A stretch of 64,000 nt of DNA from Paramecium tetraurelia (Eukaryota > Ciliophora > Oligohymenophorea > Peniculida > Parameciidae). This document shows, piece by piece, positions 19,587 through 30,538 of the stretch. The stretch is from the NCBI RefSeq assembly GCF_000165425.1, contig NW_001799641.1:625027-689026 (forward strand), given 5' to 3'. The number at the start of each line of letters is the position of its first letter. Within the stretch, counting starts at the first letter, position 1. Under the pieces are notes generated by a model. That model was not told where the DNA came from and made no database searches. It saw only the letters and a list, made by a program, of their open reading frames with translations. Position numbers and translations under genes: made by a program.

Positions 19587-20751
19587 ATGAACATTGAAGA
19601 ATCCACCAATTTCGAATGGTTAATCAAGCAGCATAGATTGGTTGGTTTCAAATTCCCATACCGAGGCAACTAGAAGGAGTTTTATGCTGATCAGACCGAC
19701 CTTATCTAACTCCGAATGAGATTGGGGAGCAAGATGATTTTTGTTAATCTAACTTAAACCTATAAGTATCTTTCTACGTTAGAAGCTGGATCGTTTGGTT
19801 AAGTATGAAATTATCATCTAGTTAATAGGTTACTACAAACGAGTGTTGCTTTAATAACAAGAAGGTGGCCATTAAACATATATTGCTAAATGGAAAGAAA
19901 GACTAATAGAGAACAATAGAGAATGAAATTCAGATTTTAAGATCGATCAAACATCCGAGATTAGTAGAGATTTACGAAGTCTTTAAAACTGAACTATATT
20001 ATTAAATTGTGACTGAATTTATTGAAGGAGATAATTTAAAACAACTAATATTCAATAAATCAAACCAAATTAAAAATGAAGAAATTTTAGAAATTATGCA
20101 AGTATAAATTAGATAAAATTGAAGTAATTACTCGAAGCTTTGACATATCTCCATCGGAACTAGATTCTTCATCGAGACATCAAACCAGCCAACATTATGT
20201 ATCACAACAACAAACTCAAATTGATCGACTTTGGGCTTGCTTGTTATGATGGCAAACAATTAATTGAAAATCCTAATTGCGGTACAGAAGGCTACGTTGC
20301 TCCTGAAGTCCTCAATGTCCATCAGACCAAAATTAATTACGATTTCAAAGTAGATGTCTTTGGGGCAGGTTGCGTTCTCTACATGCTTTTAACAGGAACT
20401 AAATTTTAATAATCAAATTAATCAAATGCAAGTTATCAAAAAAATAAAACCTATCAAAATAGCGAAAATAGTTAACTATTCGAATTGGTCAAAATTATGA
20501 CCAGGCCTAATCCACTTGACAGGCCTTCAAGTTTTTAGATTCTAGAATTAATTAGGTTAATTAAAGAGAATTGTGCCTATGACATCAGCCTATGGTATAG
20601 TAGCGCATTTAATCTCTCTAATTCAACTCACTCCTATCAGACTGCATCCACTGCTAGGCATATTCACTCTTCCAAAAACTAAAAAAGTGTTTGCAGTTTC
20701 AATAGTGCCAGAGGTATAGGATAGAACCTCTCCAAATAATTTTTAAAATGA
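19587..20751 (+). CDS. Serine/threonine protein kinase
   Basis: An N-terminal ~70-residue extension (FEWLIKQHRLVGFKFP) precedes a kinase domain with EAGSFGQV (Gly loop), KKVAIKHI (VAIK Lys), LHRDIKPANIMY (catalytic loop), LIDFGLAC (DFG), YVAPEVL (APE) and VDVFGAGCVLYMLLTG (subdomain IX). All catalytic residues are present. Introns are 26 nt (GTATGAAATT...AATAG) inside the Gly loop and 23 nt (GTATAAATTA...TGAAG) before the QLLEALTYLHR helix. The ~110-residue C-terminal tail is Ser/Asn-rich. It lies about 240 bp downstream of the dead PP2C on the same strand. CAMK/ULK-like features are suggestive, but the subfamily is not certain. Confidence 0.85.
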
Positions 20752-20844: not shown

Positions 20845-21587
20845 TCATTTAAATCTCAATAGAATGCCTTTAAAAATAGGAACTCCACCGAAGTTTAACT
20901 ACAAAAAATGGAATTAGAATACGTACATTGTTTAATTACTTAGAATCTCTCCCCAACACTTATTCAGACTTCTTCTAAGTTAATTTAAATTCCCAGGATC
21001 GGGATCTCTCACGAGGATCTTCTATTGGATCTTCAGCAGGTCCAATAATTGGGGTTGTCTACTATTTACTATTTTCAAATGCAATTACTTGGGACTTGGA
21101 TTGCTGCTTGTTGTAGGAGGGAGTTGCTAATTCCCTTCTTTCTTTCTTCAGGATATCACGTTATTACTTAAAATACAAAGATTTTACATACTTTTTCAAC
21201 CTTTTTAAGATAATGACATTGAGATTTGAGAATGAAATTTTTCATAATCAAACTATTGCAAACCACTTTACATTAGAAGAGATTTTTGAAGAAATGATCT
21301 AACTGTATTCTTCTCTCTTCAATTAACTCTTCATCGTCATTGGTGGATCTCCACCAATTAGTCGGAGGAAACTTCGGCAAACTCGCTTTAAGAGTCGATA
21401 AGGATTCATGCAACAATTTAAGATGGGAATAGCGATAATCAACTGAAAAGGAGCATCTTTAATTATTTTCGAAGAAACTATATTTTAGAATCTGATGAAA
21501 TTCTTACATTAATTGATAATAGACTACATCATCATTCTTTTTGAAAGAAGGAACACATATTGAGATGGCAAACCCATTTTCTTACAT
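20845..21587 (-). CDS. PX-domain phosphoinositide-binding protein
   Basis: The N-terminal ~120 residues read as a PX domain: GFAISICVPSFKKNDDVVYY, SVDYRYSHLKLLHESL (the R-Y-S-x-F phosphoinositide segment), KASLPKFPPTNWW (the Pro-rich PPK-type loop) and LIEERRIQLDHFFKNL. The rest is basic and unstructured, with EDPIEDPRERSRSWEF and a C-terminal LNFGGVPIFKG. Introns of 30, 25 and 28 nt (GTAAGAATTT, GTATGTAAAA, GTACGTATTC) join the exons. The start at 21587 is the ATG before QENGFAIS; an upstream exon is possible because coding-like sequence continues past an intron-like stretch. PX proteins bind endosomal PI3P or related lipids. Confidence 0.72.
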
Positions 21588-21737
21588 ATAATTATTTATT
21601 TAATGTTTTTATATACTCACTTTATGGACTTTAAAATGTTTACTCGTCGACTACCTCCTTATCTTGCTCGAAAACAAAAAAACCAACTCAAGTTCCCAAG
21701 TTTCCCCTCCTCTTTACTTCTATACAGTTGTTACGAT

Positions 21738-24700
21738 TCAATAATAAACAAATAAATCTTATACTCTTAGATAATTTATATTAAAATATATTACGTTAAA
21801 AGATTGAATGTTATAAAAATAATTATAATTAATTATCAAGAACTTAGAATTTTAATTAATTCCTAATATTCTAAAATTAAGTGTTTAATCTAAGTTATAA
21901 ACTGAATATTTTACTTCATAAGGAGTTTGAGTTTTAAAAATCATATTGCAATTATTGATTTTGCAAGTCAACTCAATCGGAAACGATTTAATGTCTGAAA
22001 CCAAGCTATAATCAATTTTAATTATCAACGCTCTATTCTCTGGCTTTAAGAAGTAAAACCCATTGTAATTCAAACCTTTTATTATAGATTAATCTAATTA
22101 CCTATTAAAACGTGAGTGCTCAATTTAATGCCAAATTTGCTTTGCTAAACTAGTTATTAGGTTTCTTTTGAACATTCTACAAAAAATAATTACATTCCAT
22201 ACAACATATTAGTCTAAAAGCAAGCTACCATCAACAGGCATGACAAACCCTAAATAGAACCATTTTTTTATTTTGGTTACATCTACTATGATTGTGTTGA
22301 AAATTCCTAAAGTTACTTTTCTCTAAATGCTGCTTCCCTTTAAATCTATTCAAACCACAGCTTTTCTGAATGCTATTTAATAACAGAATTCGGAATTGCT
22401 TTTTTCAATAGATTCTTGTCAATTTTTTATAGGGTTGCAATTGAATAATAAGCAGTCATCAAACAAAAATCTAAGAAGTTTAAAGGAAATGTTTGATTTT
22501 TCGCTTGAAACACTATTTCAAACATCAAATATTTCAATCGAGTTTCATCCTGCCGATATTCAAGCTCCTCTTACTTCTAAGGTAAGTATAAATACTTTTT
22601 AAACATAAATTGAAATTTTGTTCCATTGTTAAACATCTTTTTCAACGTTTACATAAACCCTGATTTACTCTTGTCCAAAAACGAGGATATTTTCTCATCA
22701 TCTTCTATTACTCGAATGATTCCTCCTGTATCCACTATGAAAATTTTGAAATCTACAAAATATTTTAAATTAATGTGATTTGCAACTGCACTCTTTATGA
22801 ACCAAGTCATTGTATTTTTTTTGAATCCAACCTATAGGTGTTATCCAGTCAATAAAGTTATTTCAATACAATAAGGTTATTGGGGAGCTTCAATTCCAAT
22901 CTTTACTTGTTAATCATCTTTACTTACCTTCTAACTAAAAGTTTTTTGCTATAATTCTTGCAGAATTTCTAAATAGGAGTTCTTTTGATTTTATTTCAAT
23001 TTGGACATATTCTAAAATAACTCAGGTTTTAATCTTTTTTGTTCTGGTAAACTATAGAACTTAGGATCAATTTTCAATATCTCTAAGACTTATTTCTAAT
23101 ATTCAACGTTTTCCATTATCTATGGAGAATTGAGAACAATTTACAATAGTTGCTCAATCCTCAACTTTCTTTCATCTATTACTTTTTAATTCTTTGCCTA
23201 TAAACTCTTTGTTATTGTTGGGATTTTCAGTTTATTATCATACTTATTAACAACTTATAATAAACTCAGAACTTAACTGAATCTTATTAAACTTACAATT
23301 GGAATATTATCAATAGTAAAGTTAAATTTATAGAATGTAACATTCTTATGTAATTTTGGATTCTTTTCTATTCCTAAAATTTCTACTTTAACACAAAAAT
23401 TAGTCTCTTGCTTTTTATCAATTTTTTATTCAAATGATTAAATTTATTAATTTATGATATTTTAAATTTTCGACATAAGTTTTAATTTGGTTTTAATATC
23501 CCCATTTACAATCAGAATAGTCTCATTTCTAGTCACAAACTCAAAGGAATTCTTTAGAATCAACGAGTCCTTGATATCCTTTATATAAGATTGTTAAGTT
23601 ATGGGAATATGGAATTTGTACTTCAAGGCATTTAACTTGTTTTTTTTAGCGAATAAAAGTAAATTATTAAATGCGTAGATAACGATTCTTTATTCAATTT
23701 TCTTTGTATAGATTGAACAAATGTCTTCAAAAATAAAAAATATGTTAGGCTTAAAGACAGAGAGGTTTTAGACATTGCCAAATTGGTGATATAATTCCAT
23801 TAATTTTGCTTATTTTAAAAAGACATCCATCTCGCTATTGTTCTTATCGTTAATCTTTTCAATGGTCTCGAGACAACATTTCACATTTTAGTAATCAGGG
23901 TGGGAAGGCATTGTATGTTTCAATAAATCTTTGAAGAGCAGTGCGTATTTAGGTAATCGTTAAACAGGTTTAATTGTGTAATCATTTAATGTTTAACCCT
24001 TTAATAAATTCTGTAACTTAATTTCTTTGAGAAATTATTAATAGGCAGGCATAGCCTCATATTGACTCGTTATTTTTCTGGTTTGTTCATAAGCCTTACA
24101 ATATTCATAATAGAAAATAAATCCATTTAGTAGAGGAACTATGGATTTCATAACGACAGCATTTGGATCCTTAAGATTGTTATTCTTTTGTAGTTCACTC
24201 AAAAATTCAGTATTAAAATTGAGAATCTCGTAGATATGAAACATCACTTTTATATCAGCTTCTTTATTTGGAAATTTTTCAATTGATTCCTTTTTAATCA
24301 TGTTCAAGATCTCCAAATCTGAGACATACTTTATTTCAGTTTAGATTAACTCATTCAATACATTTAATCTATATCTATTCATTTTTTCAATCAATTATTG
24401 TTCCTTTTCAATTCTCTCCTTTTTTTCTCTCTCCTATTTCAACTTTACATATCGTTAAATAAATAGAATCTTATCCAGATATTATAAGTAATATTTGTCA
24501 TCTCGTACTAAAATTAATTAGTTTGAATTGTTGATTATCAGTTTTGAATTAAAAATAGATTCTGACCGCTCATGAATATTAATCTACTATAAATCCATCG
24601 ATTATCTTTGGGATTTCTTAATTTGGGTAGTTAATTCATTGGTTATCATACTGACATAAATTCTGTCTTCGCTTTGTAATTCTTTTTCATTTACTTAAGA

Positions 24701-25146
24701 AATCAATTCATTCGAAAACGTTTAATGATTCTTCTCAACTTCTTCATCTGAATCTTACGCAAGTGTTGTTTACATCTGACTTTATTTTTATAACTTTTCC
24801 TCAATCTAATCTCTCACTTCAGGATTTTCATTAAGCATCTTATTAAAAGTGCTTATAACATCATTTTCTCCACTAATTTGAATAGATTGATCCATCTCTT
24901 GCTATCCTGATTGACTAAGTTTAAGCATATGATATACTTTTATATTACTTGTTAATCCTGTAGTACTTGAGTAACCTACATAGATTTTGCAATTTTAGCA
25001 GATTGTTCTGCTTCTTCTCTTTCTTTTTTTTATTTCTCCAATAATAACACTCTCTCTTTGACAATCCTAAATTGATATTTAAATATTACATCGAACTATT
25101 GATTACAAAATGAAAATTAATCAATTCCATACATATATTGTTACAT
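21738..25146 (-). CDS. Rho-type GEF with DH, PH, PX-like and FERM-like domains
   Basis: After a Gln/Glu-rich coiled N-terminus (~280 aa) comes a DH domain: LNELIQTEIKYVSDLEIL, EILNFNTEFLSELQ, FIFYYEYCKAYEQ, then LNDYTIKPVQRLPKYALLF, the hallmark CR3 helix with IKPVQRLP. A PH domain follows (YAFNNLLLFAKKN, LKYKFHIPI). Next is a PX-like segment (VIDERKLRIEQLLQIVLNSP, YQKQVLEILKID), then a FERM-like C-terminus. This has an F1-like strand pair (KIFIVDTGGIIRVIEDDEK) and an F3-like sheet (LYGMQLFFVECS, GLNYNGFYFLKPENRALI). DH domains exchange GDP for GTP on Rho GTPases. Several 20-26 nt introns are used. DH-PH is secure; PX and FERM are my reading of weaker matches. The 3' end (21738) is uncertain. 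Confidence 0.75.
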
Positions 25147-25383: not shown

Positions 25384-28300
25384 TCATACTATATGTATTG
25401 AGGTGGGCTTTATTGTAAAAATGCTTATGATTCTTAATGAACTTAAATTGGTTTGTTAAAATAATTCCTTATTTTTTGAATGAGATTCTAAAACAATCAC
25501 ATAATTTTCTTTCAAAAATATAAAGTGCTGTTTAAAATCAAGAATAAATTAATACACTACTAATAATGTGCATAAAACTATAATGAACCAACCAATTATT
25601 AATTCATCCTATTCATTTGGATCATTTTATTATTTATAAAATAGTATCAAGATTAATAACTCAACCAACCAAATGAACAGTTCTGAACCTATGACTTTCT
25701 AATGCTCATAAACATCCTTTAATGGCTAACTTGATTTAACGTAGAATATAAATATGATATTCAGTATTGAACATGTTAAAATAGTAATATAAGCTTCGCT
25801 ATAGCAAAACACTAAAACAAAAATGAACACTACTTTCTTACAAAGAAGGAGTAGGTTATAATAATTAGAGTAGGGTCTTGATCTTCTTATTCTAATGCCT
25901 TCAAATAGAGCTCCGTATTTTTATTTTACAAGTTGCTAACCAAAATAATAAGGCTAACTGATCATTAGAAAGAACCCCTTAATAATTAAATACAATTAAA
26001 GAAAAAAAAAGATAAAGCTTATGAAGAAACTTGAAGTCAAAAAAGGGATTCTCCATATTTCTTACTGATAACTATAGAAAAACAGCAAGATTATATTCAT
26101 ATGCCACTGACATGAAGGTTCTTAATAATCCTGAACAAAAGTAATGAATAGTGTTCAGGAAAACTCTCTAGACTTTCCTAATAATTCGAAGAATAATAAA
26201 TTTGAACAGTTCAGGTTCTTCATCGTCTATGTATAAATTCTCTTCGGAATAATATGCCATTATTTTGGTTAGAATCATAAACCCTATAATGCATAGAAAA
26301 TAAATAGATAAGGTAGTTACAAATGCAATAAAAACAGCAAAAGCATTGATATAAAACGTGGAGGAATAACCTTTTGAAGCAAATTTATAGTGAGGATCAG
26401 GTGAATCAACATAACAATTTACTAAATCTTCAATATTGAGGAAGATTTTCATGAAATCGAATTGGGCAAAGTCAAATAGTCTAAAATAGGTCTCTACATT
26501 ATAAGGATAAATGACGTTGAAAAATTATAAATAGGATATTAATTATAAAATATCCAATAGGTTCCAAAAGATGTGTAATCCCCCTACAATTAAGGAAATT
26601 ATAGCCAAACCCAATAAGATGAACAACACATATTTATTAAACTCTAGAAAGCCCTGAGTAACATCAATAACATCCTAAGAGGGTTTTAGATATTTTAATA
26701 ACTCAAATTCAAAAATCGTCTGATTAAAAGTTAAACCTTGTTTTGATTGATAATCTTAAGGGTTTTCAATTAAACATAATAAAATTGGAGTTTCCTCTCT
26801 ATTCTTTAATACAATCTATACATCAATTTAAAGAATATTATAATCTTCAAAATAATTAGTAAGCTCTTGATATTGCTTAATTTAAAATGTTTTGGAATCC
26901 TTCAGTTTGAATTAACATAATTCTGTAAATGAAACAGAAGTTTTTAACGGAATACTTGACTTTATAATAAAATTTCTTTATGCTTAATATCTATTATCAT
27001 ATAAGTCTTCTTCGAATATCAGATATGGATAGTTTTACCTATCACAAGTATCTTAACATGACCAACCATCCTCGATTAAACAGTAAAAACATCCATCTCC
27101 AGAATTTTAATTTCCGTCATCACACTATTCCTGACTTACTCGCAACCCATCCCCACAAATGTTTAAACATTTTCCATCCTTTATTTAATATCCTAGGTTG
27201 ATTTCACAAATTGCACATGACAGATCTTCATTTTATAAATTGCATGATAGACAATTATTTGCTCTCACTGAACAAGTTTTACATTATGAGTCACATTTAT
27301 CACAATGATTATTTAAATTTAAATAATATCCATCAACACAATTGTGACATTATCCCATTTCACATTATATACATAAAGGGTTAAAACAATATGATTGTGA
27401 AAAAAGACATGAGTTGCATTCATCCTTTTAATAATCATTTCCATCATCGCAATCTTCATTCCATTATACAATCTCATCCCCACAGTTACTATAACAATAA
27501 TGAGAAATTGGGGGGTTGATATAATTCATACAGGACAAACATTCCTTCATATTAGATTCATAATATCCTCTTTTACAATTGCATGAGAAAACAGTATCAT
27601 GTTATGATGGTTCTCTAGTGATTGGACATCGAGTGCACATAGTTATCAAAGGAGAATTTAAACAATACTCGCAAGAAGGGTGACAAGGAGCACATGTCAA
27701 ACTATTTTCTATTTCATAATATCCTTATTAACAAATACATTAAGTATTCAATAAGTTTAATTTCCTATTCTATTCTTAATAACAAGACAAACATGTATCG
27801 ATATCTGAACAGGTTTTACATTTTTGATCGCATTCATTACAAATCTCAGTTCCTTAATCAAAATATCCATCTTTGCATATGCATTAATTTTTGAAAATAT
27901 TTCTAAATTAATCAGGATAACATCTAATGCAAATAAATGGTTTGATTTAACAACCTTTACAAGTGGAATCACATTTATAACATTCTAGATATGGTTCCTC
28001 AGAATAATATCCCTAACGACATTCACATATAGAATGATTTAATATTCTATTTAATGAAGAATCACACTTCGTGCAATACTTTGGAGAATAAGTACATGCT
28101 CTACATAATTCCGAACAGGGCTAGCAAATCTAATTTTCCATATAATACCCTTCTAAACAACTACATTAATTAATATTTAACCAGTAATGATTAGAATCAT
28201 CACAAGCTAAACACTTTTGAAACATATTTTTTCTATGATTGATTATATCAAATCCGCAAGTCAAACATCCCTCCTCACAGGGATATTTTTAAGTACATGT

Positions 28301-30538
28301 ATTACTTAATTCAAATGTAACTTAACAATAACACTATCCATGAATTTGTATATGTTTAGGAGAACAAGAATCGCAATAATATGAATTAGTACATTAGTAA
28401 CACCCTAAAATGCATTAGAAACATGAATGAAGATTTTGATCATAATAGTACCCTTGAGCACAACTTCCAGATTACACTGAATTATCAACCATCCAATCTT
28501 AGCATTATCCAACGGAATCACATTGATTGCAAAACTCTGGACACGACACTACCATAACTCTGTAGTTAAAGATTCCATAATACTGATGCAAGTTTTTTAA
28601 TTCTTAAACAGAAAATGTTACTAACAAGCTATCAAGTGATGTAAGTAGAGTAAGTTCAATAAATCCTTCAGCTACATATTCATTCCATAACGAAGAACCC
28701 ATTGTATTTCCAATAGATAAAAACTGAAATTGATTTGAATTTGGCGTTGCTGTTGTCATTTAATAGGAAACTCCAGTAGCATTCACAAATATTTCAAATA
28801 TTTCATCGTATTATAAATCTATGCATACTACATTAAGCTTTATGAAGGCCTTGTAAAAAGGTCTATCACTTTTAATAGCATGATATATATTGATCCATAA
28901 TTCCAAAATGGGATTCCTCCCAATATTGAATAAGCATTTGAATTATATGTGAACTTACTTATTTTGTGTTCTACTTCTTCTAATTATTAACTTATGGTCA
29001 AAATTTAATCATAATAATTATTATCGTCATAGAGAATGTTTAGAATATAATTAAATTAGCCACTCATCCCATTTTCTACACATTCATTTCCTATTTAGGT
29101 CGTTTATAAAGGACATTTTGATAAACATTTATTTGCAAAATAGAAATATCCTGATTTGCATGAATTACAGAATTTTGGTTGCATAAAGGGGCAGGTCAAG
29201 CAATTATTTTCACATGAACTTAGATTCGTTGTTATTTGTTATTCTACAATCTCTAAATTTGATAAACACCACCCTCTAAGAGGTTCTACTATTGTGAACT
29301 AACCTGCAAATTTTATTTCAGTGACTTCATAATTTAAAAACATCTCAAAATAAATGTCACTTTAAAAACAATTCTCAGACTCTTCAAAATGACATTTCTA
29401 CCAATTATTTATGTGAGCTATCCCTTATGAATAGGATAGCCCAGGTTGCTCATAATCATAAATGTATAAAACTGTGTAATTATTAAATTTTAGTGAGATT
29501 TATCCACCAATGAAATGAGATTTATGATATCTCAGGAAGTATATTTTTAATTTAATCATTATCTTAGAGAAAGAAATTATTGATAATTGAGGAAAAACGA
29601 TTTATTCATTATAAAAAAAAGGACCTGCTACTTTATCATTTCCAATTTATATAATCCTCTAAGAATTATCATCAACATTTGAATAATATTTGTCCTTGAT
29701 TATGTAGAATTGATAAGAGTTGAAATCTCCAACTAAATCGTTAAACAATAAATGTGAAGTACCAATTTGGCATATTCCGTTTTAATCTGGAACATATCCA
29801 TTGGGACAAGAATTTAAACATTATATATTTGGAGTATCTAATTAAAACTAAGAATATCTATAGTCTCCAATAAAGTTGCAAAGACATTACCCTTTATTTA
29901 ATTGGAGATCATCTTTGCATCTCTCACATTATCCAGTATCATTACAAAATTCACAATTTTTATCACAAAATTAAACATACAAATAAAATCCAGATAATGC
30001 ATATATGAAAACGGGCTGAAACCCAATTGTTTCAATTAGGATCTCAATTTGATTATCTCTAAATTCTTAAAAATGATTGAATCTAAACACAGAGCTATCT
30101 GCAGAATTATTATTTCCTGGTCGATTGCAGTATATTAAGGGAGTTGGAGTTGATAACTCAAATTATGTTTAAGTATTTTCATTAACCATAACTTAATTCA
30201 AGTACAATTTAGTGCTGACTTCCTTCATCGAATCAATATAATAAAAATCTAACTCAATTCTGATAGCAGAGAATTTTCTATTGTTTGGCATTTGGATATT
30301 TCTCCAAATTTTCTCCTTTCCTTCTGCCAAGAAAGTAGAAGATGTTGGTGTACAAAGAGTTGGATTGATTTGAGTTAATGAACTAATCGTCGAATACGAA
30401 TTTAGTCCAATCCAATCCACAGAAGATGCAGCATCGAATAGTTCATATTTGTAAATTTCCCAATCTATTGTTACCTTATATTAATTTACCACACTAGACA
30501 AAACAGATTAAGATAAGACTAAATAGTTAGAACTTCAT
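25384..30538 (-). CDS. Cys-rich surface protein with furin-like repeats and multi-TM tail
   Basis: The N-terminus MKFQLFSLILICFVQC is a signal peptide, with a 25-nt intron right after it. Two lectin-like or jelly-roll-type stretches (about 30.4-30.0 kb and 29.7-29.3 kb) alternate with Cys-rich repeats of growth-factor-receptor/furin type, for example CDKNCEFCNDTGQCERC and CDKCDSQCKTCSVRANNC, which dominate 29.0-27.2 kb. The last ~450 residues hold several TM helices (NAFAVFIAFVTTLSIYFL; LIVFNYQGV; VVFIFVLVFCY; LFIWLVELLILILFY). Ciliates have many such large cell-surface proteins; ligand and function are unknown. A one-base frame break sits in a T5 run at 25,918-25,922; removing one base gives the family-typical YGALFEGI. 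Length about 1,680 aa. Confidence 0.7.

Follow-up and report, generated by a model that had tools for sequence, protein, structure and literature searches.

The 64,000-nucleotide stretch of Paramecium tetraurelia DNA analysed here (the window) carries on its minus strand a gene for a predicted Dbl-type RhoGEF, in which the DH domain is followed by a PH domain, a PX domain and a FERM domain with the lobes F1, F2 and F3. An earlier note made from the sequence had proposed one protein of this kind, and comparison with paralogues from the same genome confirmed the predicted order. The earlier note missed that this is the common build of DH proteins here, not one odd protein.

Gene model

The DH hallmark IKPVQRLPKYALLF, whose sequence and coordinates had been given correctly before, lies within a 1016-codon TGA-free frame (22070-25120, minus strand, code 6). 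Introns were chosen among GT..AG candidates, and all four positions were recovered in the spliced alignment of the ohnologue (L009, on contig C143), which is identical to the window protein in 761 of 1066 alignment columns. The resulting model is as follows.

21836..25130, minus strand: whole gene, ATG 25130 to TGA 21836; 5 exons, 1065 aa, code 6
25130-25090, 25066-24938, 24914-22102, 22075-21915, 21889-21836, minus strand: exons, from GT..AG candidates and the spliced ohnologue alignment
25067..25089, minus strand: intron 1, 23 nt, GT..AG; matched in position by an ohnologue intron of 22 nt
24915..24937, minus strand: intron 2, 23 nt, GT..AG; matched in position by an ohnologue intron of 28 nt
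22076..22101, minus strand: intron 3, 26 nt, in F3, GT..AG; matched in position by an ohnologue intron of 24 nt
21890..21914, minus strand: intron 4, 25 nt, in F3, GT..AG; matched in position by introns of L009, L010 and L011

The earlier note had set the ends at 25146 and 21738. The modelled start is 16 bases inside the first of these and the modelled stop 98 bases above the second; 21738 is where the next TGA falls when the last intron is left in. Exon 3 (24914-22102) runs from before the DH domain into F3 through 937 codons without TGA; order-1 Markov simulation of one 64-kb strand, repeated 500 times, gave no TGA-free run longer than 460 codons. The N-terminal exon is the least certain part of the model.

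Domains of the window protein

The following domains were assigned.

23837..24361, minus strand: DH (RhoGEF), aa 242-416; Pfam PF00621, E 9.9e-37; solved DH domains of intersectin, PREX and FARP2
23435..23806, minus strand: PH, about aa 427-550; profile A3 against PDB, FARP2 PH 1.3e-8, SOS1 PH 5.4e-4
23072..23398, minus strand: PX, about aa 563-671; profile A2 against PDB, SGK3/CISK PX 1.1e-9; three of the four close members match Pfam PX; the Arg601 column holds Arg in all 17 intact members
22592..22876, minus strand: FERM F1, aa 737-831; RA_2 in 4 of 4 close members, best 6.2e-4; myosin VII F1; ezrin and SNX27 weakly
22205..22591, minus strand: FERM F2, about aa 832-960; FERM_M in 4 of 15 family members, best 1.4e-4; talin F2 from 1.9e-4
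21839..22204, minus strand: FERM F3, about aa 961-1065; KRIT1_FRMD8_FERM_C in 4 of 4 close members, best 4.5e-6; myosin VIIa F3

From its sequence, the DH domain is identified with certainty: the window protein scores 127.3 bits against a curated RhoGEF cut-off of 27.6, and RhoGEF is the sole Pfam family over cut-off in the window frame alone. The PX domain gave no Pfam match in the window protein alone, even at E up to 1, while F1 (E 0.008, 16.7 bits, cut-off 27) and F3 (E 0.038, 14.9 bits, cut-off 29) stayed under their cut-offs, and the assignment of PX and FERM therefore rests on the paralogues. Since the region after the DH domain is too diverged for single-sequence search, family profiles were built. 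Alignment A1 holds 4 close members from the 18 DH loci. A2 holds 15 PX-FERM segments from the 17 intact loci (L014, closely paired with L015, and L025, closely paired with L023, were omitted, and two segments stop before FERM), and A3 holds 13 PH segments from the 15 intact loci with PH (L014 and L018 omitted). The decayed locus L026 is in none of the three.

In A1, with Pfam at E up to 1, RhoGEF, KRIT1_FRMD8_FERM_C and RA_2 matched all four members and PX three (best 1.4e-4), the fourth being the window protein. In A2, at E up to 0.5, RA_2 matched 9 of 15 members, PX 8 (best 1.2e-9), FERM_M and KRIT1 FERM_C 4 each, and FERM_N 3; SNX17-27-31_F1_FERM (best E 0.0087) and SNX17-31_F2_FERM (best E 0.067) matched one member each. 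Against solved structures, the A2 profile found the PX domains of SGK3/CISK, of SNX16 (4.5e-7) and weakly of SNX17 (0.048). The FERM matches included myosin VIIa MyTH4-FERM (3.8e-8), myosin VIIb (3.5e-6), talin (from 1.9e-4) and myosin X (0.004), followed weakly by ezrin/radixin (0.01 and above), SNX27 (0.015) and KRIT1 (0.1), and the structure matches aligned in the corresponding regions of the query. For the PH domain, the profile of 13 members places it directly behind DH in the window protein; in single members, Pfam matches were weak (SOS1_NGEF_PH in 2 of 13, best 0.0018). PX and F1 are separated by about 65 residues (aa 672-736).

These profile matches of paralogues from the same genome therefore confirm the order DH-PH-PX-F1-F2-F3; for PX and FERM it is the paralogues that carry the assignment. 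The PH fold that had been read after the DH domain is borne out by the match to FARP2, and the proposed PX and FERM domains hold by the paralogue profiles, although Pfam on the window protein alone puts neither over cut-off. An IQ motif before the DH domain was also considered. Of nine members tested, five gave a match (E 0.009-0.068), always below cut-off, and the window protein gave none; the motif is not claimed.

Conservation and selection

Relative to the ohnologue, dN/dS is 0.126 overall, 0.294 in the N-terminal part, 0.063 in DH and 0.098 in PX, and 0.125, 0.133 and 0.134 in F1, F2 and F3, with dS near saturation. No value is given for PH because dS is saturated there; among the domains computed, DH has the lowest ratio. 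The corresponding values for the two older paralogues are mostly unreliable because dS is high.

The CR1 Glu is present in all 17 intact members, including the window protein, and the CR3 Lys in 14, with Arg in the other 3 and Lys in the window protein; by analogy with Tiam1, we take these to be catalytic DH positions. In the PX domain, the Arg601 column is Arg in 17 of 17 intact members, the next residue is aromatic in 15 of 17 and the helix Arg is kept in 16 of 17, whereas the loop Lys position is mixed and not conserved. By p40phox and SGK3, the first Arg presumably forms the 3-phosphate site, and the Arg-aromatic pair, the helix Arg and the loop Lys the binding pocket. Because the loop Lys is not conserved, PI3P as the ligand is a guess. 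In L018 and L022, His stands in place of the pocket aromatic. In L023 and L025, the CR3 Lys and Arg are replaced by Arg and Gln, and these two may perhaps be drifting or inactive GEFs.

A family of DH proteins with a prevailing architecture

Code 6, introns of 20-30 nt and the many gene duplicates in this genome (69 Mb, 231 contigs) agree with an aurelia-type Paramecium. A search of it with PF00621 gave 22 matches at 18 loci. Family counts were made from gene models aligned to the window protein. Thirteen of the 18 loci were modelled as DH-PH-PX-FERM; among them is L020, whose F3 is not shown because its model is unreliable beyond F2. The same order occurs in the ohnologue, in two older paralogues and at nine more loci. 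One pair, L023 and L025, is without PH (DH-PX-FERM), and another, L018 and L022, is without FERM, its models ending after PX (DH-PH-PX); L026 (G000:C37) is a decayed DH copy with in-frame TGA codons. PX and FERM are thus found together in 15 of the 17 intact DH loci, 13 of which have PH as well.

In the raw genome scan, a Pfam PX match stood after DH and before FERM at three loci of the 18 (C48 3.0e-8, C213 2.4e-6, C161 5.6e-5), and at the other DH loci it fell short of E 0.001. With the window FERM as query, all 12 matching places were at DH loci, and with the C213 FERM 13 of 14 were; the genome matches of RA_2 (3 of 3) and KRIT1 FERM_C (1 of 1) were also at DH loci. The exception (L045, G000:C227:306482-306640) is a FERM alignment over about 108 residues on contig C227, where PF00621 has no match and no convincing DH alignment was found within 8 kb; it is probably a relic of a C213/C161-type gene. 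Searches with tblastn found no relatives in viral contigs or in bacterial and archaeal genome contigs.

Trees of DH-PX and of FERM have seven clades in common, with support of 0.99 or more in both: the window gene with L009, L010 with L011, those four together, L016 with L024, L017 with L019, L014 with L015, and L023 with L025. The trees are unrooted, the shared clades are mainly close pairs, and support for the deeper nodes is poor, the trees of the different domains disagreeing there. The pair without FERM clusters with L020 (support 0.995), and its FERM was probably lost, because L020 has F1 and F2; the position of the pair without PH is weaker (0.794). Mostly because the architecture is present in every clade, the DH-PH-PX-FERM fusion would probably predate the DH family of this genome.

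Some models needed care. Ab initio prediction misses some last introns and fused L011 and L023 with upstream genes, and the sequences were therefore trimmed to begin near the DH domain before alignment. In L010 and L011, the spliced alignment took out two stretches of 27-36 nt each that the ab initio models read through; these are probably coding, and both proteins are therefore about 20 residues short in A1 and A2.

Candidate substrates and other Rho regulators

The earlier note had treated the substrate as a puzzle, Rho GTPases being reported as scarce or absent in ciliates. The puzzle did not survive the genome search, which found 12 Rac-like GTPase loci, 13 RhoGAP matches at 11 loci and one RhoGDI locus. 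A Dictyostelium-type Rac query gave 122 matches, of which 12 loci were kept as Rho-like (L027-L033, L035, L039-L042); L034 and L036-L038 were aligned and judged Rab-like by eye, and the remainder were left unmodelled. The 12 loci are 38-53% identical to the query over the modelled stretch, and all 12 models have a CAAX-like Cys four residues from the end, the ends having been read on without seeking further introns.

By their sequence matches, L028 and L032 appear to belong to the Rac/Rho type and not to another class of small GTPase. L028 matched 790 solved sequences and L032 matched 232 (best E 4.9e-52 and 9e-52, respectively); in each case the top 60 carry the names Rac, RhoG, Cdc42/G25K, plant RAC or simply GTP-binding protein. 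Assignment of the remaining ten loci is by alignment to the Rac query. The Rho-insert region has 23-27 residues in 9 of the 12 models, compared with 34 in the reference, and a full insert was not found in this comparison, in which the models of L027 and L035 carry a stop and L040 is ambiguous.

Proposed function and alternatives

The reading that we favour, with reasonable though not high confidence, is that the protein would act as a Dbl-type, Rac-type GEF, with its PX domain on a 3-phosphoinositide membrane and its FERM domain on a protein partner, loading a Rac-like GTPase. We infer the exchange activity, lipid specificity, FERM partner, autoinhibition and place in the cell as follows. The PX domain would recognise a 3-phosphoinositide on membranes of endosomes, phagosomes or the cortex, PI3P being the likeliest lipid, and the FERM domain would bind the tail of a membrane protein or a second small GTPase. 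Together they would place, and probably unlock, the DH-PH unit, which would charge a Rac-like GTPase of this genome with GTP; the loaded GTPase could then drive local actin or membrane remodelling. An endosomal and cargo function may be part of this. On its side the sequence offers one gene, four domains in order, conserved catalytic and lipid-pocket positions, the family-wide order, and the Rac-like GTPases, GAPs and GDI; the counterpoints are the missing PH of L023 and L025, the missing FERM of L018 and L022, the poor deep tree nodes and the unconserved loop Lys of the PX pocket.

The main rival assigns the FERM domain to an active Ras-, Rap- or Arf-like GTPase; the protein would respond to that GTPase as its effector and in turn activate a Rac-like one. 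The FERM domain of KRIT1 binds Rap1, and in Pfam F3 matches KRIT1_FRMD8_FERM_C and F1 matches RA_2; this resemblance is weak and general, however, and in the profile search the myosin VII FERM stands far above that of KRIT1 (3.8e-8 vs 0.1), so that we regard such an arrangement as rather improbable. It is still less probable, and in our judgement unlikely, that the DH domain has been kept as a docking fold that catalyses no exchange, with PX-FERM working as in the sorting nexins. The absence of PH and the CR3 changes in L023 and L025 do show that a DH domain can drift inside a DH-PX-FERM architecture, but the window protein retains the catalytic residues at the positions checked, and no domain with a computed dN/dS has a lower ratio than DH.

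That neighbouring DH-PH and PX-FERM genes have been read as one is very unlikely, even though code 6, with its single stop, makes long open frames easier and a separate PX gene lies directly downstream (see below). One TGA-free exon reaches from DH to F3, the order recurs in the ohnologue, in two older paralogues and at nine more loci, and the downstream PX gene lies past the stop. The earlier proposal of a single protein, to be read with code 6 and short introns, is upheld.

Returning to the proposed membrane-directed Rac-type GEF, a wider version, to which we give slightly less than an even chance, would derive all Dbl-type RhoGEFs here from one DH-PH-PX-FERM ancestor. Rho activation would then be tied throughout to 3-phosphoinositide membranes and FERM partners, with Rac-like substrates of reduced Rho insert and a FERM fold surviving almost only in these GEFs.

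Comparison with known proteins

RhoGEFs are grouped by their accessory domains. FARP1 and FARP2, like the window protein, combine DH-PH and FERM in one protein, and among solved structures the PH profile matches FARP2 best; the DH-PH of FARP2 is also matched as one stretch (5.5e-21, fifth in the list). FARP proteins have FERM first, in the order FERM-DH-PH-PH, with two PH domains and without PX, whereas in the window protein FERM is last and PX stands between; the FARP order was not found. SNX17, SNX27 and SNX31 have PX before FERM as here, with weak matches of SNX27 F1 and SNX17 PX, but are without DH-PH, and in the window protein the segment of about 65 residues separates PX from F1. That the order found differs from those of SNX17/27 and FARP agrees with what had been noted before. 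The MyTH4-FERM myosins VII and X and talin are among the best solved FERM matches of A2 and are without DH; unlike these myosins, the window gene model has neither motor nor MyTH4. PREX1/2, intersectin and Tiam1 are among the best solved DH matches, and their accessory domains differ.

A PX survey of 2010 reports, in the parts examined, large PX numbers in Paramecium and Tetrahymena; it lists RhoGEF and FERM_M as PX-associated domains, RhoGEF co-occurring rarely, and these parts do not name the DH-PH-PX-FERM combination (PMC2837644). According to a myosin survey, the tails of Paramecium tetraurelia myosins have only IQ motifs, coiled coils and RCC1 domains, and FERM occurs in some Tetrahymena myosin tails (PMC2375034). 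One review describes Rho signalling as absent from sub-clades of alveolates. Searches by hyphenated names, titles and the starts of abstracts, mostly in non-subscription literature, did not meet the order DH-PH-PX-FERM, which may be annotated somewhere. The present analysis gives, for ciliates, one genome with a set of Rho parts, namely GTPases, GEFs, GAPs and a GDI, in which the GEFs likely have a built-in membrane address. The idea that actin in Paramecium is directed by membranes of phagosomes, endosomes or the cortex, via lipid-recruited GEFs, becomes testable in this way.

Neighbouring genes

Directly downstream on the same strand, a separate PX match of 45 bits (window 21228-21452, minus strand, in frame 21156-21737) apparently belongs to a small PX protein; the ohnologue has a counterpart of it on the corresponding side (C143:511133-511357). 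This neighbour lies past the GEF stop, which rules it out as the PX domain of the earlier note. Near it, a frame at window 20080-20751 (plus strand) has protein-kinase motifs (HRDIKPANIM, DFG). Next to the GEF gene, at window 25901-29008 (minus strand), is a long frame rich in cysteine, in which CxxC blocks recur and hydrophobic stretches can be made out by eye.
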